From: Bacillota bacterium
GTDB taxonomy: Bacteria > Bacillota > Clostridia > Caldicoprobacterales > DTU083
Reading direction: 5' to 3'
Assembly: GCA_029549985.1 (NCBI GenBank)
Contig: JAKPIB010000049.1
Span: 1-41,407 of the forward strand
DNA: 41,407 nt
Positions 188 to 30,243 of the stretch are shown piece by piece (the first letter of the stretch is position 1; each line of letters opens with the position of its first letter). The notes below the pieces were generated by a model. It saw nothing but the letters and a program-made list of their open reading frames with translations, was not told the origin of the DNA and did no database searches. Made by a program: the position numbers and the translations under genes.

Positions 188-3100
188 GTGTTTAGGGTTA
201 CCGGGATCAGGACAAGGGTAGTCGTGGCTATACTTGTCCTGGCAATGTTGTCGGTCTTCTGCAACATCGGTGTTTTCGCTGCAGACTTAGGTCAGGAAAA
301 GATAATCTACACCGTAGCCAACGCCCATCTTGACACCCAGTGGAATTGGGATGTCAGAAGAACAATCAATGAATACCTTCCTAAGACATTTAGCAACAAC
401 TTTACTCTATTCGAGAAATATCCGGACTATGAGTTCAACTTCGAAGGTGCATTCAGGTATGCCCTGATAAAGGAGTACTATCCGGAGGCCTATGAAAGAC
501 TGAGAGATTATGTGATCGAAGGCCGCTGGAATGTAGCGGGCAGCTCCTGGGATGCAGGTGATGTCAACATTCCTTCGCCTGAAGCAATAATGCGCAATAT
601 CCTGCTTGGCAACAAGTTCTTCGAGCGGGAGTTTGGGAAGACCAGCGTAGATATCTTTCTTCCCGACTGCTTTGGTTTTGGGTATGCCCTCCCGTCAATC
701 GCTGTTCATATGGGACTGAAGGGCTTCTCAACTCAAAAGCTGACCTGGGGTTCTGCCTATGGGATACCCTTTGACATAGGCAGGTGGTATGGAGTAGACG
801 GTTCATATGTGATTGCTGCATTGAACCCCGGCTCTTATACCACGACCTATCAAAGCTCCTTGAGTGCACCCGGTTCTTCATGGGTGAACAGGGTGAATCA
901 AAACGGAGCATATGGCCTGTTTGCTGCTTACAGCTACCATGGCACTGGTGATACCGGGGGCTCTCCTGCTGACGGGTCTGCCAGGATAGTCCAGCAGGAT
1001 ATCGACAAGGGGGTCGACCCGACCACCGGAGTCAGGGTCATTAGCGCTTCGACAGACGAGCTGTTCAGAGATATCACTGCGGAGCAGGCGGGCAAGCTTC
1101 CCTACTTCGACAATGAGCTGGTCATGACGACTCATGCTGTAGGCGGCTATACCTCCAGAGCCATATCAAAGAGGTGGAACAGGCACAACGAGCTTCTGGC
1201 TGATGCCACAGAGAGGGCAAGCGTCATAGCCGACTGGATCGGAGGAGCGCCCTATCCCAAGGAGCAGTTGGATACTGCATGGAAGCGTTTTGTATGGCAT
1301 CAATTCCACGATGACCTTCCGGGGACAAGCCTGCCTTCTGCATACGAGATTTCCTGGAATGATTACATCATATCCCTGAATCAGTTTGCTGAGGAGCTGA
1401 CCAATGGAGTAGGCGCCATTGCCCGGGGAATGAATACGCTTGCCGAAGGCATCCCTGTGGTGGTATACAACCCGGTTTCCAAGGCCCGAAAGGACGTAGT
1501 GGAGGCAGAAATAGACTTTGGCATGGAAGCTCCTGCTGCGGTCAGGGTCTTCGATCCCGATGGCATAGAGGTGCCTTCCCAGATGCTTTCCATTGACGGT
1601 CATACAGCCAGGATCGCATTTATCGCTGAAATGCCCTCCGTTGGATACAAGGTGTATGATGTGGTGCCATCAGAGACCGGATGTACGATAGACACCGGGC
1701 TTAGGGTAACAGGGACGACTCTCGAGAACGATTACCTCAAGGTAACGATCAACCAGCTTGGTGATATCAGCAGCATATATGACAAGCTGAATGACAAGGA
1801 GCTGCTGGCAGCTCCCGCAAGGCTTGAGCTGTTCAATGACAATTCGACCACATGGCCTTCCTGGGAGATCCTGTACAGTGATCTGAGTTCCCCCAGGGAG
1901 TATGTAGGCGGGCCTGCTGAAATCACAATAGTTGAGCAAGGGCCTGTAAGAGTAGCTATCCAGGTCACACGAAAGGCTGCAGGCTCAACATTTACTCAGA
2001 CCATCAGGCTGTCAGCCAGTGAGGATGACCGCCGAGTCGATGTTGATAACAATGTTGACTGGCAAAGCAAAGCCACATTGCTGAAAGCAGCCTTCCCGCT
2101 GAACGTATCCAATCCAAAAGCGACCTATGATCTGGGGCTGGGCGTCATACAAAGAGGCAACAACACCAGCCAGTTGTATGAAGTGCCGGCGCAGCAATGG
2201 GCTGACATAACCGATACATCAGGGGATTACGGAGTCAGCATAATAAATGACTGCAAGTATGGCTGGGATAAGCCAAACAACAATACCCTAAGGCTCACAC
2301 TCATCCACACCCCCAGGGGTTCCTATGGCAGCAACAAACAGGATGTCCAGGACCTGGGCGAGAACAGGTTCCTCTACTCGATATACGGTCATGCGGGTGA
2401 CTGGGTAGAGGGAGAGACAGTAAAGCAGGGCGAAAAGGTCAATCAGCCCTTGAGGGCCTTCCAGACTGCGAAGCATGACGGAGACCTGGGGAAAGCCTTG
2501 TCGTTCCTGGCTATCGATAATCCGCATATTACCGTTAAGGCGCTGAAGCAAGCAGAAGACAGCGATGAGATCATAGTCAGGGTCCAGGAGACCAGCGGCA
2601 GGTCATACTCAGGTGTGACCCTGTCCATGGGCAATGGCATAGCGAGCGCAAGAGAGGTCAACGGCTTTGAGGACCACCTGGGCGATGCCCTGGTCGAAGA
2701 CGGAAAGCTTATATTCGATATAGGCAGATTTGAGCTAAAAACCTTTGCCATCACCCTGGATACAGCTCCAATAGAGCTTGTTGCGCCTGCGTCGAGGTTC
2801 ATAGACCTGCCTTACAACAAGGATGTCATCAGCTTCGACAGCAACAGAAGAGACGGAGCCATGGATTCCAGAGGCATCACGATACCGGCGGAGATCCTGC
2901 CCTCTATCATCACCAGCAAGGGCATAGACTTCCGCATGGGTCCCAAGGAAGATGGCCAATACAATGCTGTAGCTTCCAATGGGCAGACGATCACTATACC
3001 GGAAGGCTACAGGCATGTCTATCTGCTGGCTACCTCGATCGCCGGGGATCTGACAGCGACCTTCCTGGTCAACGATACACCCGTTAGCGTTGGGATCCAG

Positions 3101-4558
3101 GACTACAGAGAGTATGTAGGCGGCTGGGATCATGTAGGGAACGGAACATTCCGCGGGATCAAACGTGATCCGGTCGCATGGAACGCTTCCCATCTGCACA
3201 CTCCGACGGGCAACAGCGCATACGATTATGTATACCTGTTCAGGTACAGGATAGATTTGCCCGAAGGTCAGAATACGATCACACTGCCTGAGGATGAAAA
3301 CGTTCTTGTATTCGCAATGACGGCTTCCAACAACGATAACGATGATACTGCCGTTGCCGGCGAGCTGTATGATGAAAAGGAACCGGCCAAGACATACAAG
3401 CTGACCGTTAAGAACGGCACAGGCAGCGGAAGCTATCCGGCAGGCTTTGAGGTCGGCATCTCGGCAAATGTCCCGGTAGGCTACAGGTTCAAGGAGTGGA
3501 TCGGTCCTGTTGAGGATCCGAAGGCCCTCAATACGACGATAAGAATGACGGCTGGAGATATGGAAGTAGAAGCTGTCCTTGTCGAGCTGGGCACCAACCT
3601 GGCCTTGAACAAGCCTACTTCAGCCAGTGGTTATGTGAATAACAATGAAAGGCCTGCATTAGGTGTGGACGGCAACAGGAATACCAAGTGGTGCTCAACC
3701 AATTCAGGCAACAAGTGGCTGAGGGTGGACCTGGGTTCAGTTCAGACTATAAATGCATGGCAGGTAAGGCATGCAGGAGATGGCGGAGAGAACACTGGCT
3801 GGAATACCAGAGACTTCAGGCTGCAGGTAAGCAATGACGGAGTGACCTGGACAGATGTTGATTCTGTAAAGGACAACATGGCAAATATAACCGTCGGGCG
3901 TATAGAGCCGGTCAAGGCCAGATATGTAAGACTTTATATAACCGATCCGGAGTACGTCCCCTGGACCGGGGCTGCAAGGATTTATGAGTTTGAGATCTAT
4001 GGGCCGCAGATCCAGGAAATAGGCCTGGACGTAGCCGATGCTGTACTTGAGAGAAACCAGGTATTTGAGCCCGTATTCTCAAAGGCATTGCTGGTAACCG
4101 GTGAGACCGTAGACCTGGATCTCGAAGATGCCATAATTGAATACTACAGCAGCGACACCAATGTGGTTTCTGTTGAAGATAATCTGCTGATCGCTAAAAA
4201 TGTGGGGACTGCTGAGGTCTATGCAAGGATAACCTACAATGGCAGGACTGTGGAGACCAACAGAGTATCAGTGGCAGTCAGCGTCAGCTGCGGATCCATC
4301 GAAAGACTGGTAACAGGCTACATCGACACAGGCGAGCTCACCGGGCCATTGGTACCTCAGCTTAAAAACAGCCTGAAGCAAGCAGGGCATTTTGTAGAGA
4401 TGGGCTTCTACAAACAGGCTGTTCACCACATGAAGAACTTTGTGAAGCACTTGAACAATCCGCCCATGGGCAGCCTTATCTCAGATAGTGCCAAGGAAGT
4501 ACTGAATTTTGATGCAGAGGCGCTTATAGAGCTATTCAAAGGGCGGATCACAGAATAG
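188..4558 (+). CDS. Secreted multidomain GH38 alpha-mannosidase
   Basis: Predicted extracellular glycoside hydrolase releasing alpha-linked mannose. Residues 1-31 form a signal peptide (Arg-rich start, hydrophobic core, likely cleavage near VFA-AD). The GH38 N-terminal domain carries the family's zinc-site HLDTQW motif (H47, D49) and the PDCFGFG motif with the presumed nucleophile Asp near residue 160. The GH38 middle and C-terminal beta domains extend to about residue 830. After a further beta-rich region come an InlB-B-type repeat (about 1068-1134, ending in a GYRFKEW motif), an F5/8-type C (discoidin, CBM32-like) domain (about 1135-1273), a BIG2-like Ig domain (about 1276-1366) and a helical C-terminal module resembling FIMAH domains. 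The GTG start is preceded by GAGGGGGAG. No LPXTG or SLH anchor was seen, so it is probably released or held through its binding modules. At 1456 residues it is much longer than cytosolic bacterial GH38 enzymes. It is followed by a terminator and stands alone. Confidence 0.92.
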   Translation: MFRVTGIRTRVVVAILVLAMLSVFCNIGVFAADLGQEKIIYTVANAHLDTQWNWDVRRTINEYLPKTFSNNFTLFEKYPDYEFNFEGAFRYALIKEYYPEAYERLRDYVIEGRWNVAGSSWDAGDVNIPSPEAIMRNILLGNKFFEREFGKTSVDIFLPDCFGFGYALPSIAVHMGLKGFSTQKLTWGSAYGIPFDIGRWYGVDGSYVIAALNPGSYTTTYQSSLSAPGSSWVNRVNQNGAYGLFAAYSYHGTGDTGGSPADGSARIVQQDIDKGVDPTTGVRVISASTDELFRDITAEQAGKLPYFDNELVMTTHAVGGYTSRAISKRWNRHNELLADATERASVIADWIGGAPYPKEQLDTAWKRFVWHQFHDDLPGTSLPSAYEISWNDYIISLNQFAEELTNGVGAIARGMNTLAEGIPVVVYNPVSKARKDVVEAEIDFGMEAPAAVRVFDPDGIEVPSQMLSIDGHTARIAFIAEMPSVGYKVYDVVPSETGCTIDTGLRVTGTTLENDYLKVTINQLGDISSIYDKLNDKELLAAPARLELFNDNSTTWPSWEILYSDLSSPREYVGGPAEITIVEQGPVRVAIQVTRKAAGSTFTQTIRLSASEDDRRVDVDNNVDWQSKATLLKAAFPLNVSNPKATYDLGLGVIQRGNNTSQLYEVPAQQWADITDTSGDYGVSIINDCKYGWDKPNNNTLRLTLIHTPRGSYGSNKQDVQDLGENRFLYSIYGHAGDWVEGETVKQGEKVNQPLRAFQTAKHDGDLGKALSFLAIDNPHITVKALKQAEDSDEIIVRVQETSGRSYSGVTLSMGNGIASAREVNGFEDHLGDALVEDGKLIFDIGRFELKTFAITLDTAPIELVAPASRFIDLPYNKDVISFDSNRRDGAMDSRGITIPAEILPSIITSKGIDFRMGPKEDGQYNAVASNGQTITIPEGYRHVYLLATSIAGDLTATFLVNDTPVSVGIQDYREYVGGWDHVGNGTFRGIKRDPVAWNASHLHTPTGNSAYDYVYLFRYRIDLPEGQNTITLPEDENVLVFAMTASNNDNDDTAVAGELYDEKEPAKTYKLTVKNGTGSGSYPAGFEVGISANVPVGYRFKEWIGPVEDPKALNTTIRMTAGDMEVEAVLVELGTNLALNKPTSASGYVNNNERPALGVDGNRNTKWCSTNSGNKWLRVDLGSVQTINAWQVRHAGDGGENTGWNTRDFRLQVSNDGVTWTDVDSVKDNMANITVGRIEPVKARYVRLYITDPEYVPWTGAARIYEFEIYGPQIQEIGLDVADAVLERNQVFEPVFSKALLVTGETVDLDLEDAIIEYYSSDTNVVSVEDNLLIAKNVGTAEVYARITYNGRTVETNRVSVAVSVSCGSIERLVTGYIDTGELTGPLVPQLKNSLKQAGHFVEMGFYKQAVHHMKNFVKHLNNPPMGSLISDSAKEVLNFDAEALIELFKGRITE

Positions 4559-4763: not shown

Positions 4764-6281
4764 ATGGAAAACTATATTGTTGAGATGGACGGTATCAGCA
4801 AAAGCTTTCCCGGAGTAAAAGCGCTCGATGATGTTTCCTTTCGGCTCAGGTCCGGGGAAGTTCTTGCACTGCTAGGCGAAAACGGAGCAGGGAAATCCAC
4901 TTTGATGAAGATCCTGGCAGGAGTGTACCCAAAGGATGAAGGCACCATTAGAATACTGGGCAAGACGGTGGAGCGGTTATCACCGGTCATAGCCCAGGCG
5001 ATGGGAGTCGCTATCATCAATCAGGAACTGAACCTGTGTGACCACCTGACAGTGGCCCAGAATATTTTTCTTGGAAGAGAGCTCACAAAAAACGGGATTC
5101 TATCCCAAAAGCATATGAATGAACAAGCATACAGGCTTTTGAGCAGATTTCAGATCGACATCCAGCCGGACACTATAGTAGGCGATCTTCCGGTATCTAA
5201 AAAGCAATTGGTTGAGATAGCGAAAGCCCTGTCGATCGATGCAAAAATACTGATCATGGATGAACCGACCTCAGCCCTGACATCCAAGGAGATCGACAAC
5301 TTGTTCTCCATCATCAGACAGCTGAAGGAGCAGGGACACGGCATAGTATATATCTCCCACAGGCTGGAGGAGCTCCAGTATATCGTTGACAGGGTCATGA
5401 TATTAAGAGACGGCAGGTATATCACGTCGATGGATTTCAGGGATACCACCTTAAGTGAGATCATCTCATATATGGTGGGGAGAGAAATCAAGGAAAAGTT
5501 CCCGCGGATAGAGCAAGAGCGGGGAGAGAAGATTTTTGAGGTCAGGAACCTGAATGCCGGGAAAATGGTGAGAAATATAAGCTTCTCACTGTACAAGGGC
5601 GAGATCGTAGGCATTGCAGGACTGATGGGAGCCGGACGAACGGAGACCACACGGGCACTGTTCGGAGCCGATCCCAAAGAATCCGGCGAAATAATCATAA
5701 ACGGCAGGGAAGTTCAAATCAATGGTCCAATGGATGCCATCAGGGCAGGGCTCGTGCTCGTACCTGAGGACAGGGCAAAAGACGGATTATGCATCAATCT
5801 CAGCGTAAGGGAGAATATAGCCCTTCCGAACCTCGATATGCTGACGACCCCACTCACTGTGGTCAACAGAGCAAAGGAAGACGAGCTTACAAGCAAATCC
5901 ATCAAAAATCTTGACATAAAGGTGGCACATCCCGATGTGGAGGCCAATAGCCTGTCCGGAGGGAACCAGCAAAAGGTGATCGTGAGCAAGTGGCTGGCCA
6001 GAAACTCCAAGGTCGTCATGTTTGATGAGCCTACAAGAGGGATAGATGTCGCCTCCAAGGTAGAGATATACAACATCATGAATGATCTGAAGCGCAAGGG
6101 CATTGGGGTGCTGTTTGTTTCTTCCGAACTCCCCGAGATCCTTGGGATAAGCGATCGGATCCTGGTCATGGCAGATGGCAGGATCACAAAGGAGCTGGAT
6201 GTAAAGGACGCAACTCAGGAAATCATATTGGAATATGCCACCAAATTCGAAAACAAGCTTGAAGCCGGAATCGGAGCCTGA
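4764..6281 (+). CDS. Sugar ABC importer ATPase, tandem-domain RbsA/MglA type
   Basis: Cytoplasmic ATPase that powers uptake of a simple sugar. The 505 residues contain two ABC domains, the family's normal architecture. Domain 1 has Walker A GENGAGKST near residue 39, a degenerate signature (LPVSKKQLVEIAKAL) and Walker B ILIMDEP. Domain 2 starts near residue 255 with a degenerate Walker A (GLMGAGRTE) and has signature LSGGNQQK and Walker B VVMFDEP. This asymmetry between the two sites is typical of the CUT2 family. It begins the operon ATPase-permease-binding protein; the permease start lies 21 bp downstream. A possible promoter with TATAAA at 4715-4720 has only a weak -35. Substrate cannot be read from the sequence; ribose, galactose, xylose or allose are all possible. 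Confidence 0.93.
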   Translation: MENYIVEMDGISKSFPGVKALDDVSFRLRSGEVLALLGENGAGKSTLMKILAGVYPKDEGTIRILGKTVERLSPVIAQAMGVAIINQELNLCDHLTVAQNIFLGRELTKNGILSQKHMNEQAYRLLSRFQIDIQPDTIVGDLPVSKKQLVEIAKALSIDAKILIMDEPTSALTSKEIDNLFSIIRQLKEQGHGIVYISHRLEELQYIVDRVMILRDGRYITSMDFRDTTLSEIISYMVGREIKEKFPRIEQERGEKIFEVRNLNAGKMVRNISFSLYKGEIVGIAGLMGAGRTETTRALFGADPKESGEIIINGREVQINGPMDAIRAGLVLVPEDRAKDGLCINLSVRENIALPNLDMLTTPLTVVNRAKEDELTSKSIKNLDIKVAHPDVEANSLSGGNQQKVIVSKWLARNSKVVMFDEPTRGIDVASKVEIYNIMNDLKRKGIGVLFVSSELPEILGISDRILVMADGRITKELDVKDATQEIILEYATKFENKLEAGIGA

Positions 6282-23405: not shown

Positions 23406-25487
23406 TTATTCCAAAGCCAGGGCTGTTGCTACCTGGTCCATAGCATAGCTTTCGTCGCTCTTGCGGGGGACTATTAACGCCGCTTTCGGTATGGCCAGGA
23501 TGGCCTTGAACAGGTCTCCGTCGACTTCTACCCTGAGGCTGCCTCCGCCTGCCTCGGCAAAGGATTTTGCTATGGCCAGCCCAAGGCCGGACCCTTCTGT
23601 GGAGCGGGATTTATCACCCTTTACGAATCGTTCGAGGATGTCATTTTCATTGAAGTCCATCTCATAGTTCGCTATATTTTTTATCTCTACTATACCCCAT
23701 TCATTGTCGTCTGTAACATCTACATAGACCCGGGTACCCGGCATTGTGAACTTCAAGGCGTTGTGCAAAAGGTTCATGAGTATCCTGTACAGCTTGTTGC
23801 TGTCGCCGGAGATATACACCGTCCTTTCAGGGGTGCTGACCCGGAAATCAAGGCTTGATGCCCGGATACTGTCGGAGGTGTCTGCCATGACCTGTTCTAC
23901 AAGCCTGCCAAGGTCGAGGGTCTTTATATCCAGCTTGATCTCACCGGAGGTCGCCTTGGACAAGTCGAACAGATCCTGTATCAGCCGGTTGAGCCGGTCG
24001 GATTTGGTTTTGAGCACATTGATATAATCCCTGACATGGTCCGGCAGGCCGGTCTCCTTGTCCAGGAGGTCGATATAGCTGATTATGGACGTCAGGGGAG
24101 TTTTCAGGTCATGGGATACATTGGTTATGAGTTCTACCTTGGTGCGCTCGCTCTTCAGCATCTCCTGCAGGGTCTTGTTCATGCCGTCCTGGATGCAGTT
24201 GAGGTTTTCAGCAACAGGATACAGGATCGTATCCCGGTCAAGCTTCAGCTTTGTCTCAAAGTCCCCGTTTTTGACAAGCTCAAGCTGCTTCGTGATCCTG
24301 GTCAATCCATTGATGAACCGGATACATCTGTCCAGGCCCTGCCAGGCAGCATAGAAAAATGCAGCTGTGATCGCGGCCAGCAGGACATACAACGTGACAG
24401 AGGAGCTGAGAGCCTGATCCCCGGCTCCTGTTATAAGGATATACAGGAACAGTCCGGCACCTGCCAGCAATGCTTCGGTCAATGCAAAAAGGCTTACCTT
24501 CATTGCCAGTGCCTTGGACAAGGGCTGCTTTACCCAGTAGTTCTGCAGCCTTGATGCCTGGATGTATGCATAGCTGTTTACGAAAAATCCGCCTTTATTG
24601 CGGGCAAGGTCCGCCAGCAGATAACAGGCCCACCAGACAGGGAGGATACAAACCGCAGCTTTTGCTCCACGGGGAGAGCCTGACCGGTTGACCAGGTCAA
24701 ACAGGGCAGTAAGGGCCAGGAGGGTCAGCAGCTTGGCCTCCAGGTTTATTTTTGACACGATGCTGACGATCCTTTTATTGAATGCAGCTACCCTTCTATG
24801 TGTCCCAATGGCTGTAGCCAGCAGCAAGATGCCCAGGATGGCTGAAGCAATACAGTTTTGAACGACCGTCTTGACCTCATGCTCTTTTCGTTTCAGTTCT
24901 GCGAGCCGGCTGTCCTCGATGCCGGAGTCGATGTCCTCTTTTACCAGCAGCATGATCCGGATGCTTTCCGCCCGATTGTGTTCATCCTCTTCATATAGCC
25001 GGCTGTCGTACTTAAGGAGCCTGTATTCGTACCCTTCTGTACTGTCGTACACATCGACAAGCTTGTCCCTGTTCTGGGCAAGAAAGCTTCTTCCATTGAA
25101 GTACAGGCAGTAATCATAGCCCCTGGGCATTTCCGTCCCGGTCTTGGGGAAGGTCGGTTCATAGCTCATATTGGTGTACAAGGCGCCTGTCTTTGGATAG
25201 TATGAGTAATAAAGCAGGTTGTCTCCTTCAGCCTTAAGCAGGATGATATTGGATGAATTGCTGTAATGGGCATCCAGCAGGAGCTCGAACAGGTCCGTTA
25301 GGGTCTCCTTGAATGCCTTTCTTTCTTTCAGGTCGACCGTGAATATTTCGTTGACATCATACAGGCTGTAGGCATTATCTCTAAAATAGCCTATGAGAGT
25401 AACTGAAGAAACGATGATCAGGAAGATGCCAAGTATAGAGCAGAGCCATGCCAGAACCTGCTTATAGCTTTTCAATCTTATATCCAA
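23406..25487 (-). CDS. Membrane sensor histidine kinase
   Basis: Sensor partner of the upstream response regulator. The 693 residues start with a membrane helix (AWLCSILGIFLIIVSSVTLIGYF). An extracellular domain follows to about residue 210. Next come a cluster of about six membrane helices (about 212-385), a HAMP-like segment (INGLTRITKQLELVKNGDFETKL), the H-box NVSHDLKTPLTSI and the N-box NLLHNALKFT. The C-terminus carries a GSGLGLAIAKS G2 box. The usual G1 aspartate motif is not visible; the region reads VEIKNIANYEMDFNENDILERF, a form shared by a clostridial kinase subgroup. The likely start is TTG at 25487, 26 bp inside the regulator gene, so translation is coupled. The signal is unknown. 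Confidence 0.9.
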   Translation of the reverse strand: MDIRLKSYKQVLAWLCSILGIFLIIVSSVTLIGYFRDNAYSLYDVNEIFTVDLKERKAFKETLTDLFELLLDAHYSNSSNIILLKAEGDNLLYYSYYPKTGALYTNMSYEPTFPKTGTEMPRGYDYCLYFNGRSFLAQNRDKLVDVYDSTEGYEYRLLKYDSRLYEEDEHNRAESIRIMLLVKEDIDSGIEDSRLAELKRKEHEVKTVVQNCIASAILGILLLATAIGTHRRVAAFNKRIVSIVSKINLEAKLLTLLALTALFDLVNRSGSPRGAKAAVCILPVWWACYLLADLARNKGGFFVNSYAYIQASRLQNYWVKQPLSKALAMKVSLFALTEALLAGAGLFLYILITGAGDQALSSSVTLYVLLAAITAAFFYAAWQGLDRCIRFINGLTRITKQLELVKNGDFETKLKLDRDTILYPVAENLNCIQDGMNKTLQEMLKSERTKVELITNVSHDLKTPLTSIISYIDLLDKETGLPDHVRDYINVLKTKSDRLNRLIQDLFDLSKATSGEIKLDIKTLDLGRLVEQVMADTSDSIRASSLDFRVSTPERTVYISGDSNKLYRILMNLLHNALKFTMPGTRVYVDVTDDNEWGIVEIKNIANYEMDFNENDILERFVKGDKSRSTEGSGLGLAIAKSFAEAGGGSLRVEVDGDLFKAILAIPKAALIVPRKSDESYAMDQVATALALE

Positions 25488-26163
25488 TGCCCCACACCAC
25501 CTTCAGATATTTGGGTTCCTTTGGATTTATCTCGATTTTCTCCCGTATCCGCCTTATATGTACCATCACAGTATTTTCAGCATTGAAGGCTGTTTCACCC
25601 CACACACGTTCATAGATCTCCTCTGCGGGAAATATGCGGCCCAGGTTTTTCATCAGAAGCTCCATGATCTTCATTTCAGTTGCAGTGAGGCTGACAGGCT
25701 CGCCATCGAGGGTGACGGAATATGTATCCGGGTCGAACTCCAGTGCTCCGGTCCTGATGATGTTGCCGTTCCTGCTTTTGTTTATATCACCCAGCATCAT
25801 ATACCTGCGCAGCTGGGACTTAACCCTGGCCATAAGCTCCATGGGATTGAAGGGCTTGGTTATGTAGTCATCGGCACCAATGGACAGGCCCAGGACCTTG
25901 TCGGTGTCTTCGGATTTAGCCGACAGCACTATGATGGGTATGTTCTTGTCCTGCCTTATCTTCATAACGGCTGACAGGCCGTCGAGCCTGGGCATCATGA
26001 TATCTATTATGATGAGCTGAAGATCTCTGGCGGTCACTATGTCAAGAGCCTGCAAACCGTCATAGGCCTTTAGTACCTCGTAGCCCTCCTTTTCCAGGTT
26101 TATGGCTATGGCCTGGACTATGTCCCTGTCATCATCAACTACCAGAACACATGGCTTTGTCAA
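25462..26163 (-). CDS. OmpR/PhoB-family response regulator
   Basis: DNA-binding regulator of the two-component system. The receiver domain (about 1-120) has the acidic pocket VVDDDRD, phospho-acceptor Asp in LIIIDIMMP, the switch Ser in IVLSAKS and the invariant Lys in DDYITKPF. The C-terminal winged helix (about 135-233) contains LTATEMKIMELLMKN and VWGETAFNAENTVMVHIRRIREKIE, which is OmpR type. Length (233) is normal. A perfect TATAAT (minus strand, 26194-26189) with poor -35 lies just upstream, next to TTAAG repeats that fit this family's binding geometry. Autoregulation is therefore likely. Confidence 0.94.
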   Translation of the reverse strand: MTKPCVLVVDDDRDIVQAIAINLEKEGYEVLKAYDGLQALDIVTARDLQLIIIDIMMPRLDGLSAVMKIRQDKNIPIIVLSAKSEDTDKVLGLSIGADDYITKPFNPMELMARVKSQLRRYMMLGDINKSRNGNIIRTGALEFDPDTYSVTLDGEPVSLTATEMKIMELLMKNLGRIFPAEEIYERVWGETAFNAENTVMVHIRRIREKIEINPKEPKYLKVVWGIGYKIEKL

Positions 26164-26188
26164 CGCATATCCCCACCTTCCTTTCCTG

Positions 26189-26194
26189 ATTATA
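26189..26194 (-). promoter_or_regulatory. -10 element for the response-regulator operon
   Basis: On the minus strand a perfect TATAAT lies about 26 bp before the regulator ATG. No recognisable -35 is present at the usual distance, which would suit a promoter helped by an activator. Confidence 0.5.
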
Positions 26195-26246
26195 ACATAT
26201 ATAAACGGTTTCTTTGGTCATCCGATGCATACTATACAACTATATT

Positions 26247-26388
26247 CTTAAGAAAAAGTGGATAAAATTCTTAAGAATTTCTTAAGATTATTGGCAAGGT
26301 ATATTATACGGGCTATTTATTTAATGAAGCTTATACTGACAGGATGCAAGAAATTTGTAAGAAATCATTAAGAAATTCTTAAGTTTGG
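26247..26388. promoter_or_regulatory. Clusters of 11-bp-spaced TTAAG repeats, candidate response-regulator boxes
   Basis: CTTAAG occurs at 26247, 26270, 26281 and 26378, with ATTAAG at 26367 and TGTAAG at 26356. The 26270/26281 pair and the 26356/26367/26378 triplet are each spaced by exactly 11 bp, one helical turn. This is the arrangement bound by PhoB/OmpR-family regulators. After the first pair a 10-bp gap leads to TATTAT (26302-26307), a plausible -10 for the rightward genes. Binding by the adjacent regulator is inferred. Confidence 0.6.
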
Positions 26389-27854
26389 CATCTCTAGAAG
26401 TAATGTATAATGGAACAAACAGTCGTAAAAGTTTATATTTAACTATTTACGAATTGACAGAGCTTTACTATTATGACATTCAAAATCGGGCTTTAATGCT
26501 CAAAAGGCTTACTGACGGCAAGTGCTTTCTGTTGAGCAAAGATCAACTGATATTAAGTGCGGATATGTTGATATACCATGACAAGAAAATATATAGCTTT
26601 ACTTATTGCACCAGCGGCCAGGATGAAGAAAATACTTATAAAATTGCTCGTTATACTATTGGAGATGAAGACAGCAGCTCGGGGAAAAATAATAACAACA
26701 ATTATAATAAGAACTATGATGGTGTTGTACTTAAAGTATTGGGAGCGTATGAATCCTTGCGCACTCTTGATGAAAGTGCAGTCAGATCGAAAACAGGCAT
26801 CGGCACGCTTAAGGTGCCTATAACTGAAAAGTATAGCAATTATGATCAGTTAATTACGGCTATTCTAGCTGATAAAGAGGACTCCGATATCTATTTGATG
26901 CACTCAGGGCTGGATTTGATGTGGAAAATCAGGGATAAGGCAGCATATGGGCCGATAAAACCATCCACGGGTATAACAGAATATATTAACAGTTGTTTTG
27001 ATTATATAAATCAGCTTTGCTATGCGAAAGATACTGAGATATGGGCTTTACCTATACATAATCAAGCCAACGTAATATTATACAACGAGAAAAATATGGA
27101 GAAGGCCGGCTACAGTCCGGATATGTTTAAATCACATGCAGTGTTTATGGATAACATCAAAAAAATAGCTAAAGACCCTGCAGTTTGCAACAATTATGAG
27201 GTATGGCCTTTTCCTTACAATAGCAACAGGCTAAAAAGGTGGCTGGATTTCTATATGTATTCTGAGGATGGGAGCATAAACTGTAACACCGAAATGTTCA
27301 GGGATTACCTTTATTTCGAAAAAAGGTATACAGGTGATGAACGATTTGATTTGTTCCCATTTAGAAATGCATCAGGACGTGAGCATTTAAATCCTGACAG
27401 CCTTGTGTACAATGATGAGCTTATGCTGTTTAGGCATGAGTTGGATTTCCAATTTAAAGATTTGTCCGATGAAGTGAGAATTGTTCCAGAGCCTTACTGG
27501 GATGAAAAAGATCAGGATGTAAATTATACCCTGCTTACCTTTATGATTATAAACAGGAATTGCAAGAACAAGGATGCGGCAATGACATATGTAGAAGCAG
27601 TAGCGAAGACTATACTGGAAAAACCGGTACCTCCGTTTTTATTTAAAAATAAAGAGGTCTACACAGGTCGTAATATAAATTTGACAGTATTTGAGGATCT
27701 GTACAATATCTATGCCCATGGAAAATGCCATATACCTTTATTTGATACTGATGCTTTATACAGCACTATATGGGATTACTTTGAGGGAAAGATCTCTATG
27801 GATGAGGCTATTGCGCGTATAGAGAGGGATTTGGAGATGGGGCTGAACGAATGA
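26385..27854 (+). pseudogene. Sugar ABC binding protein lacking its N-terminal signal (probable decayed gene)
   Basis: The 489-codon frame encodes an extracellular-type solute-binding protein but has no signal peptide. The frame is closed upstream by TAA at 26358 and offers only a TTG (26385) without a ribosome-binding site, or an ATG at 26403. The first 90 codons are beta-rich (LYLTIYELTELYYYDIQ, KKIYSFTYCTS) and look like the end of a propeller-like domain. An Asn-rich linker follows. The binding-protein fold runs from about residue 115, with SDIYLMHSGLDLMWKI, IWALPIHNQANVILYNEKNMEKAGY and YWDEKDQDVNYTLLTFMIINR. About 60 bp upstream, in another frame, MKLILTGCKK looks like a lipobox fragment. 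Codon and base use are AT-richer than the flanks. It could still be expressed if it has an unrecognised start. Confidence 0.65.
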
Positions 27855-27867
27855 TGGAGATGATCCT

Positions 27868-28690
27868 ATGAAATATCATAAAAAAATGCTGTTATTGATT
27901 ATTCCAAGCTTGCTGGGAGTCATATTATTCTATTTTCTGCCCCTTTGCAAAACATTTTATTATGCTGTAACAGATGGTACCTTAAGCAGAAGATTTGTCG
28001 GTATGGATAACTTCATTACTGTAATTGGTAATAAATATTACATAATGGCGCTAAGAAATACATTGCTTTTCACGGCGGTTTCTGTCAGTAGTATAGTAAT
28101 ATTTTCGGTTGTAATATCGTTTTTACTATCCGGAGTAAAACATGATATTTATGATTGGGCTTTCATTTTGCCAGTATTGCTGCCTACCTCATCAATAATT
28201 TTATTATGGCGCATCGTATTCGGGGAATATACTGATATAGCAAAAGCACTAGCTGCTACTGGGAGCAATATAATCATGAACCTCCCGCTATATTTGATAT
28301 ATATATGGAAATATGCCGGATTTAACATTGTTTTAACGACCGCTGCCATTACCGGGATCGATAATTCAATACAGGAAGCAGCAGCAATTGATGGCGCAAA
28401 TTCATATGTAAGATTTAAGTTCATTACTCTTCCATTGGCTATGCCAGTTATTTTTTACACGGTTGTTATAAGTATAGTAAACTCATTCAAGATTTTTAAG
28501 GAGAGTATTTTTATTATATGGAACGCCTTACCCGCCTGATTATGCCTATACACTTCAATACTTTATGAACAATCATTTTTTTAAGCTTAACTATCACTAT
28601 TTATCATCGGGGGCAATTATTTTTTCATTGATTGTATATGTAATCGTAGCTTTGGCACATAAGGCAGACAAGCATTTTTGGAATTATTGA
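27868..28690 (+). pseudogene. Sugar ABC permease with frameshift near 28519
   Basis: A UgpA/MalF-type permease. The first frame (223 codons from ATG 27868) contains the N-terminal helix, the GMDNFITVIGNKYY region and the EAA loop IQEAAAIDGANSYVRFKFITLPLAMP. It then ends prematurely at TGA 28537-28539. From 28520 the next frame continues the family's normal C-terminus (PYPPDYAYTLQYFMNNHFF, then a final hydrophobic helix) to TGA at 28688-28690. One extra base, or two missing, explains the break. It could be a true frameshift mutation or a sequencing error. The start follows GGAGATGATCC. It is co-oriented with the binding protein and the second permease. Confidence 0.85.
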
Positions 28691-28707
28691 GCAGGAGGCT
28701 GCAGTAT

Positions 28708-29532
28708 ATGCGAAGATTAACTAGTGCAGTAAGGTTGTGTTTTGTTATTTTTTCTGCTGCTATATTCCTCTATCCTATAATCTGGATCATATCAACTTCT
28801 TTTATGGGTGCTAAAGAGTTCAATCTAAGGTATATAACAGGGCAATATGGAATTACTCTCATACCATGGCGGGTCACTTTCAAACAGTATTATATGCTAA
28901 TGGTTGAAAATTACCGGTTCTTTATATTCTTCTGGAATAGTGTACTATATGCTTTTATTATAACAGCTATGACGGTGGTGGTCGCTGTTCCTGCTGCTTT
29001 TGTGCTTGCCAAGATTCAGTTCCGCGGAAGGGATATGCTGCTTTTCCTATACATAATAATTATGATGATGCCTTTCCAGGTGACATTAGTCCCTAATTAT
29101 ATTCAGTTGAGGGATTTAGGTTTACTGAATACAATCTGGAGCATTATACTACCTGCTGCATTCAGCTCTTTTTCGGTTTTTTTGTTAAGGCAGTATTTCT
29201 TGTCATTTCCCGATCAGATCATAGAGTCAGCACGTTTAGAAACCAATTCAGTGATCAATATCCTTCTGCGAATAGTTGTACCTGTGTCAAAGCCTGCCAT
29301 AGCCGCCCTTATGATAGTAACCTTTGCTGAGTGCTGGAACTTAATTGAACAACCTTATATTTTTTTAGCAAACAAAAACCTTTACCCCCTGTCTTTAGTT
29401 TTCGCTGATCTAATTAAAGAACTTCCTGAGTTGACCTCTAGTGCTGCTGTGATATATATTACACCGGTATGCATTATGTTCTTTCTATACAAGGAGTTTA
29501 TTGCTAGCAGTCTAGGGAAAATGAAATGGTGA
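28708..29532 (+). CDS. Sugar ABC permease, MalG/UgpE type
   Basis: Second permease of the AT-rich importer cluster and apparently intact. The ATG at 28708 follows AGGAGG nine bases upstream; it is preferred over an upstream in-frame TTG. The 274 residues include a first helix (LCFVIFSAAIFLYPIIWIISTSF) and FFWNSVLYAFIITAM. The conserved MMMPFQVTLVPNYIQLRDLGLLNTIWSIILP follows, in two parts. The EAA-loop region (IIESARLETNSVINILLRIVVPVSKP) has Glu-Thr-Asn where most relatives have the DGA motif, a departure that may weaken ATPase contact. No ATPase gene is present in the cluster. Confidence 0.88.
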   Translation: MRRLTSAVRLCFVIFSAAIFLYPIIWIISTSFMGAKEFNLRYITGQYGITLIPWRVTFKQYYMLMVENYRFFIFFWNSVLYAFIITAMTVVVAVPAAFVLAKIQFRGRDMLLFLYIIIMMMPFQVTLVPNYIQLRDLGLLNTIWSIILPAAFSSFSVFLLRQYFLSFPDQIIESARLETNSVINILLRIVVPVSKPAIAALMIVTFAECWNLIEQPYIFLANKNLYPLSLVFADLIKELPELTSSAAVIYITPVCIMFFLYKEFIASSLGKMKW

Positions 29533-29546
29533 GAGAGGTTTGCGTT

Positions 29547-30179
29547 ATGACTTTAAGAAATCTTAAAGGTAAATCACTGATTATATATTTCTCACTAATG
29601 CTATTTATTACTTTTTTCTCAAAGACTTTGTTTTATCATATAAATCCCAAAGTTGATGTATCTAAGCCATTAGAAAAAACTATATCTGTAACTATAGAAT
29701 TGAAGGATGAGGATTTATCATTGGATGCAGATGGAAATCTATATTTCGATGATACTGTCATAGCTGAAGATACAGATGACAATGATATTTTCTGTCGTGT
29801 AACATGCTCCAAAGCGGATAATATTGACGTTTCAGTTTGCACATTGGAACGAAAAAATGGTAGTTGCTATATAGTTAACAGTAAGCAAATATCCTATATC
29901 GAATACGACAATATACTTGTGGAGTTGATTATCGGTACAAAAAAAAGACTTTTTATTGAAGAAGCATCTGTAATAGACGGAAAATATGTTTATATTGTCT
30001 ACGATGAAGTCAATTACTTCGGGCTGAAACACAGAGTAAAAAAGATACCTGTGAAGCTGGGAATATCAGAAGACAGATTTGTAGAGGTGACAGATGGCAT
30101 TAACCCTGAAGATTTAGTGGTCACTAAATGCGATAGAAACATTCAGGATGGTGATATTGTTGTATTATCGCTTGATTGA
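29547..30179 (+). CDS. Small membrane-anchored protein with HlyD/RND-adaptor-like C-terminus
   Basis: A 210-residue protein with one N-terminal membrane helix (SLIIYFSLMLFITFFSKTLFY) and an outside-facing beta-rich region. The part after the helix (INPKVDVSKPLEKTISVTIEL) resembles the start of Gram-positive RND/HlyD-type adaptors. The last 65 residues (YVYIVYDEV, HRVKKIPVKLGISEDRFVEVTDGI, PEDLVVT, IQDGDIVVL) match the membrane-proximal domain pattern of such adaptors. The middle is too short to hold the usual hairpin and complete lipoyl domains, so it looks shrunken. ATG 29547 is chosen because GAGAGAGG lies eight bases upstream; an ATG at 29526 would overlap the permease. Its presence in a sugar-importer cluster is unusual. 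Function unknown. Confidence 0.6.
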   Translation: MTLRNLKGKSLIIYFSLMLFITFFSKTLFYHINPKVDVSKPLEKTISVTIELKDEDLSLDADGNLYFDDTVIAEDTDDNDIFCRVTCSKADNIDVSVCTLERKNGSCYIVNSKQISYIEYDNILVELIIGTKKRLFIEEASVIDGKYVYIVYDEVNYFGLKHRVKKIPVKLGISEDRFVEVTDGINPEDLVVTKCDRNIQDGDIVVLSLD

Positions 30180-30184
30180 TGTTC

Positions 30185-30231
30185 GAGGCTGCTGCTGAAA
30201 GAGCATTAATTATTCAATGCGCAGCAGCCTC
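30185..30231. repeat. Long inverted repeat between convergent genes
   Basis: GAGGCTGCTGC (30185-30195) is the exact reverse complement of GCAGCAGCCTC (30221-30231). An inner GCATT/AATGC stem (30203-30207, 30216-30220) extends the structure. It lies between the convergent stops at 30179 and 30244 and may end transcription from both sides, but neither side has a T-run. Confidence 0.5.
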
Positions 30232-30243
30232 TGGGCGTTTGCA

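Follow-up and report, generated by a model that had tools for sequence, protein, structure and literature searches.

A miniature membrane-fusion-type adaptor encoded with CUT1-type permeases, and the Gram-positive adaptor family around it

Adaptors of the RND/HlyD type (TIGR01730, PF13437, PF16576) serve RND, MFS or MacB-type exporters, whereas in the 41,407-nucleotide contig of a Clostridia bacterium analysed here (JAKPIB010000049.1; hereafter the window) a short adaptor-like gene, P0001, has genes for importer-type permeases as its partners. What such a protein does at such a place is the question that this locus raises. The initial annotation had offered two answers, an accessory subunit of the permeases or a signalling part for the adjacent kinase. 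Our analysis makes it probable that P0001 is a miniature of a HlyD/RND membrane-fusion-type adaptor family that regularly accompanies a single clade of CUT1-type importer permeases in Gram-positive bacteria, with the miniatures keeping the part that would contact the permeases. No description of an adaptor and sugar permease system was found in the literature searched, which covered few subscription papers; the building blocks, adaptor and CUT1 permeases, are both known; what appears to be undescribed so far is their combination and the reduced form.

The P0001 gene and its domains

P0001 was called as an open reading frame of 210 amino acids on the forward strand (29547-30179). It starts at the ATG at 29547, with a GAGAGG-like ribosome site just 5′, and its stop codon ends at 30179; an alternative start, the ATG at 29526, would give a protein of 217 amino acids. 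A family profile built from full-size members of at least 300 amino acids, with P0001 left out of its making, matched P0001 at both ends (E = 1.5e-18, Z set to 4,865). The match pairs residues 9-52 with profile positions 59-102 and residues 144-207 with positions 351-414, and skips positions 103-350, which hold the lipoyl domain, the hairpin and the barrel. The first segment (29571-29702) comprises the N-terminal membrane anchor and the motif ITFFSKTL...NPKV (compare LTFFSNTI...LPKV), which is also seen in full-size members; this motif, of the type LTFFS[NK]T...LPKV and here in the form ITFFSKTLFYHINPKV, is a mark of the CUT1-linked adaptor family. The last segment (29976-30167) is the adaptor membrane-proximal (MP) domain. 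It also carries the match to the NCBIfam RND adaptor model TIGR01730, which is confined to residues 144-206 and to the end of that model (positions 265-320 of 322; E = 6.5e-5) and scores below the cut-off (22 bits versus 94.9). A Pfam search of P0001 gave no family above the cut-off and no lipoyl or HlyD match. The profile search thus gave a weak match to the end of the general model and a strong one to the family profile, and it bears out the initial annotation in its description of an N-terminal anchor and an adaptor-type C-terminal domain without the hairpin and lipoyl core.

The middle part, residues 53-143 (29703-29975), stands in place of about 248 profile positions. The lipoyl (barrel-sandwich) domain is absent, as judged by the skipped positions and the Pfam result, and so is the α-helical hairpin, the 91 residues between the matched parts being predicted to form mostly strands or coil. 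A barrel was considered for this part; the barrel profile scored its residues no better than shuffled sequences (510/995), a hand alignment notwithstanding, and similarity to the nearest full-size relative was weak in a shuffle comparison (158/2000). Because of these two results a barrel is not claimed, and residues 53-143 are possibly a barrel remnant.

An AlphaFold2 model made with 25 relatives has high confidence over approximately residues 131-210 (pLDDT 86-98, about 95 in the MP domain) and mostly values below 50 up to residue 128; a second run on residues 78-210 still gave no confident fold for the middle part. In a Foldseek search of the model against the PDB, the first 29 of the 50 matches listed were adaptors (TMexC, AcrA, BesA, MacA, MexA and CusB), with all E-values exceeding 0.05, a consequence of the low confidence of much of the model. 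The C-terminal domain is thus predicted to fold as in adaptors. P0001 therefore shares with RND/HlyD adaptors the N-terminal anchor and the C-terminal MP domain and differs from them in having neither a lipoyl domain nor a hairpin. BesA of Borrelia burgdorferi, among the top PDB matches, is hairpin-less like P0001, but its lipoyl, barrel and MP domains are all retained and its transporter is an RND efflux pump (PMC3807786). According to a review, hairpin-less adaptors had been expected in Gram-positive bacteria but not found (PMC4446572). Searches of 99 related genomes, of the order and of viral contigs found no close relative of P0001, and the sister species (G001) had no match to it.

The operon in the window

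As the initial annotation had it, P0001 closes a binding protein-permease-permease cluster. Pfam and NCBIfam searches identified a solute-binding protein (SBP) and two EAA-type permeases upstream of it, all on the forward strand, and no MacB_PCD gene is present in the operon. The SBP-like gene (26385-27854) starts at TTG and encodes no signal peptide and a short N-terminal extension only, unlike its intact relatives, which have lipoprotein signals and longer N-terminal regions. Three-frame translation revealed an out-of-frame stretch upstream of the start (26324-26371) that reads as a probable lipobox-like remnant (MKLILTGCKKFVRNH and a stop). PERM1 (27868-28539), from the ORF call and frame translation, is shortened by a +1 frameshift: it breaks near 28505, and its C-terminal part carries on in another frame (28505-28690; VFLLYGTPYPPDYAYTLQYFMNNHFF...), aligning there with the end of the PERM1 profile (E = 6e-14). 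A programmed frameshift was considered and set aside, since the conserved motif in which the break falls has neither a stop nor a slippery site at that place; the preferred explanations are a mutation and an assembly error. PERM2 (28678-29532), just upstream of P0001, was assigned by Pfam, NCBIfam, alignment and tree to the adaptor-linked clade of CUT1-type permeases and carries its motif as WNLIEQP. Its EAA loop is atypical and lacks the usual glycine (ESARLETNS), as do those of L116 (EAVLIESKS, 5383-6255) and L077 (ESGLLETSS, 2722-3534). None of the eight other CUT1 loci of the same genome has an adaptor gene.

On the reverse strand, divergent from the SBP gene, lie genes for an OmpR-type response regulator (RR; 25462-26163) and a histidine kinase (HK; 23406-25487), both of host-like composition. 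Between the RR and SBP genes are three exact copies of TTCTTAAGA (26245-26288), two of them 11 bp apart; the window holds no further exact copy, and the three are possible, putative sites for an OmpR-type regulator. The operon itself occupies an AT-rich island (26164-30240; about 36% GC versus about 50%), and the GC content of its four genes (0.327-0.377) compares with 0.47-0.57 in the other 26 genes of the window. Relatives without the operon keep the RR and HK genes (G007, G004) and the MFS gene (G004, G002), so that the flanks persist in relatives but not side by side, and the comparison establishes the absence of the operon alone. The AT-rich island points to horizontal transfer. Given this island, the absence in relatives, the break in PERM1 and the SBP without a signal peptide, the most plausible reading is that the operon was acquired and is decaying. 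With the operon damaged, it is doubtful that its P0001 copy works, and this copy is probably either a remnant or in the process of being lost.

An adaptor family linked to one CUT1 permease clade

Weak P0001 matches in other Clostridia led to loci in which a full-size adaptor (433 or 674 amino acids) lies beside a CUT1 permease pair and is followed by a MacB_PCD gene. When 392 Clostridia genomes were searched with one such full-size adaptor, nearly all of the best loci had the order PERM1-PERM2-adaptor-MacB_PCD, with the SBP gene before or after, and a pattern derived from the PERM2 alignment had at least 597 matches in 84,980 GTDB species genomes. Eighty family loci were kept, about 75 with the adaptor inside the cluster. 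In Clostridia the adaptor mostly occurs with MacB_PCD, and in Paenibacillaceae it is mostly followed by the SBP gene. The full-size relatives, 343-684 amino acids long when miniatures are set aside, match the RND/HlyD adaptor families TIGR01730, PF13437 and PF16576. The family contains one more damaged copy, the full-size adaptor of L050 (6134-7487), which is divided between two frames in the finished genome G336.

In an independent draw, an adaptor gene was present in the cluster of all 30 family loci and of one of 20 ordinary CUT1 loci; the homologues of P0001 thus do co-occur with sugar-type permeases. The adaptor gene is downstream in 28 of the 30 and upstream in two (G040 and G131), and the lone positive control locus, L230, proved to be a further miniature. 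The motif WN.[VI]EQP, which the PERM2 beside P0001 also bears, was found in all but one of the family PERM2 proteins (29/30) and in no control permease. MacB_PCD is absent from the operon of the window, L192, L200, L230 and most Paenibacillus loci, and so it does not define the whole family. A UgpC/MalK-type importer ATPase gene is included in some family operons, in L068 after the full-size adaptor and MacB_PCD.

These clusters share the SBP and the two EAA-type permeases, and in some cases the UgpC/MalK-type ATPase, with CUT1 importers such as UgpAE and MalFG. CUT1 importers are not known to have an adaptor subunit. ABC-linked adaptors are represented by MacA, Spr0693 and YknX, two of which are Gram-positive, and a MacB_PCD protein is found in the clostridial clusters too; however, those adaptors act with ATP-driven MacB exporters, whereas the partners here are CUT1-type permeases and an SBP, some with a UgpC/MalK-type ATPase.

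Recurrent miniatures and the role of the adaptor

Six miniature adaptors of 122-252 amino acids were found: those of the window, L116, L134/L062, L192, L200 and L230. With Z at 4,865, the family profile gave E-values of 3.7e-20 for L116, 4.6e-17 for L192 and 3.7e-13 for L200, alongside that of the window. The same anchor and MP domain are kept in every miniature; they stand alone in L116, L192 and L230, and the window, L134 and L200 miniatures have 70-100 extra residues. The gene of the L192 miniature (122 amino acids) lies 9 bases downstream of PERM2 and 2 bases upstream of the UgpC/MalK-type ATPase gene. That of L230 (125 amino acids) is encoded in a single-contig finished genome that also holds a full-size system. 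The L134/L062 miniature, the second adaptor of L134, is a 228-codon form with one in-frame TAG. Two neighbouring features were recorded: genes for a C39-peptidase ABC exporter and a separate ATPase directly upstream of the SBP-PERM1-PERM2-miniature-ATPase operon of L192 (134-2307), and a gene for a 219-amino-acid membrane protein with a His/Glu-rich tail that overlaps the start of the L116 miniature frame by about 120 bases (2597-3256).

A profile of five miniatures, run against 391 Clostridia genomes, gave no convincing short frames beyond the same six, and on this result miniatures are rare. In a tree built from 55 PERM2 rows, which included five miniatures and left out L230, the miniature label needs five changes, at least four of which are forced by well-supported branches; the tree has long branches, and the grouping of the window and L077 in it may be artefactual. 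On the permease tree, the six miniatures thus appear to go back to about five separate reductions. Full-size adaptors are the norm in the family, and miniatures are reductions that recur.

The miniatures might instead be decayed full-size adaptors, left by neutral internal deletions in dying operons and without function. The damage to the operon of the window and the in-frame TAG in the second adaptor of L134 would fit such decay. It is nevertheless unlikely: SBP, permease and miniature genes are all open in L116, L192, L200 and L230, the L192 miniature fits closely between PERM2 and the gene for an importer ATPase, that of L230 stands in a finished genome, and random deletions would not be expected to leave the same anchor and MP domain each time.

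Less likely still, the clusters might be sensing devices rather than importers, in which a ligand outside the cell is sensed through the SBP, permeases and adaptor and signalled to an OmpR-type two-component system encoded nearby. The neighbourhood survey showed OmpR-type RR genes within 3.5 kb of 29/80 family loci and of 0/20 controls; in four Bacillus-group loci (L088, L091, L103 and L105) RR and HK genes directly follow PERM2 and no adaptor is present, and the TTCTTAAGA repeats of the window lie between RR and SBP genes. The x226 genes after PERM2 in Bacillus, considered as adaptor candidates, were response regulators instead. However, an RR gene is near only 1/27 of the family loci containing MacB_PCD, some clusters have their own importer ATPase, and the RR and HK genes of the window differ from the operon in composition and are present in relatives without it. 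Furthermore, the two-component system stays where the adaptor is missing, implying that this link can be made without the adaptor. The suggestion in the initial annotation of a signalling part for the adjacent kinase is therefore weak, whereas the family gives good support to its other proposal, an accessory subunit of import-type permeases, through the comparison with ordinary CUT1 loci and, most directly, through the gene order of L192.

It is improbable that the permease pair has turned to export, with the adaptor and the MacB_PCD protein forming an outward channel as in MacAB-like pumps: adaptors and MacB_PCD domains are exporter parts elsewhere, and the adaptor Spr0693 of Streptococcus pneumoniae, which is MacA-like, assembles into a tube on a MacB-like ABC exporter (PMC5768738), but the SBP genes, EAA-type permeases and UgpC/MalK-type ATPases belong to importers, and the miniatures lack the tube-forming lipoyl and hairpin domains.

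We therefore favour an adaptor that works on an importer, the import role being suggested by the permease, SBP and ATPase families. In known pumps, the anchor and MP domain of the adaptor contact and tune the transporter, and the lipoyl and hairpin domains build the conduit (PMC4446572). In the present family, the anchor helix and the extracellular MP domain would pack against the permease pair, and they may stabilize or tune the permeases or aid docking of the binding protein. The lipoyl-hairpin part of full-size members would project outward, either to the MacB_PCD partner or across the wall, and the miniatures would retain the permease-contacting part alone, which would make that part essential and the outward part optional. 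The anchor and MP domain seem indispensable, because miniatures recur, four of them in intact operons and one between PERM2 and an importer ATPase gene. We put at about even the chances of a broader proposal, namely a large class of Gram-positive ABC importers with a membrane-fusion-type adaptor as a core subunit, whose minimal working form would be 122 amino acids, one membrane helix plus the MP domain, a form at which several lineages would have arrived independently.

Current understanding places adaptors in export pumps, and here they are standing partners of importer-type permeases in hundreds of Bacillota. Several adaptors of the family have lost exactly the tube-forming part, providing a natural deletion series that separates the action of the adaptor on the transporter from its role as a conduit. 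The purpose of adaptors in Gram-positive bacteria may thus become directly testable.
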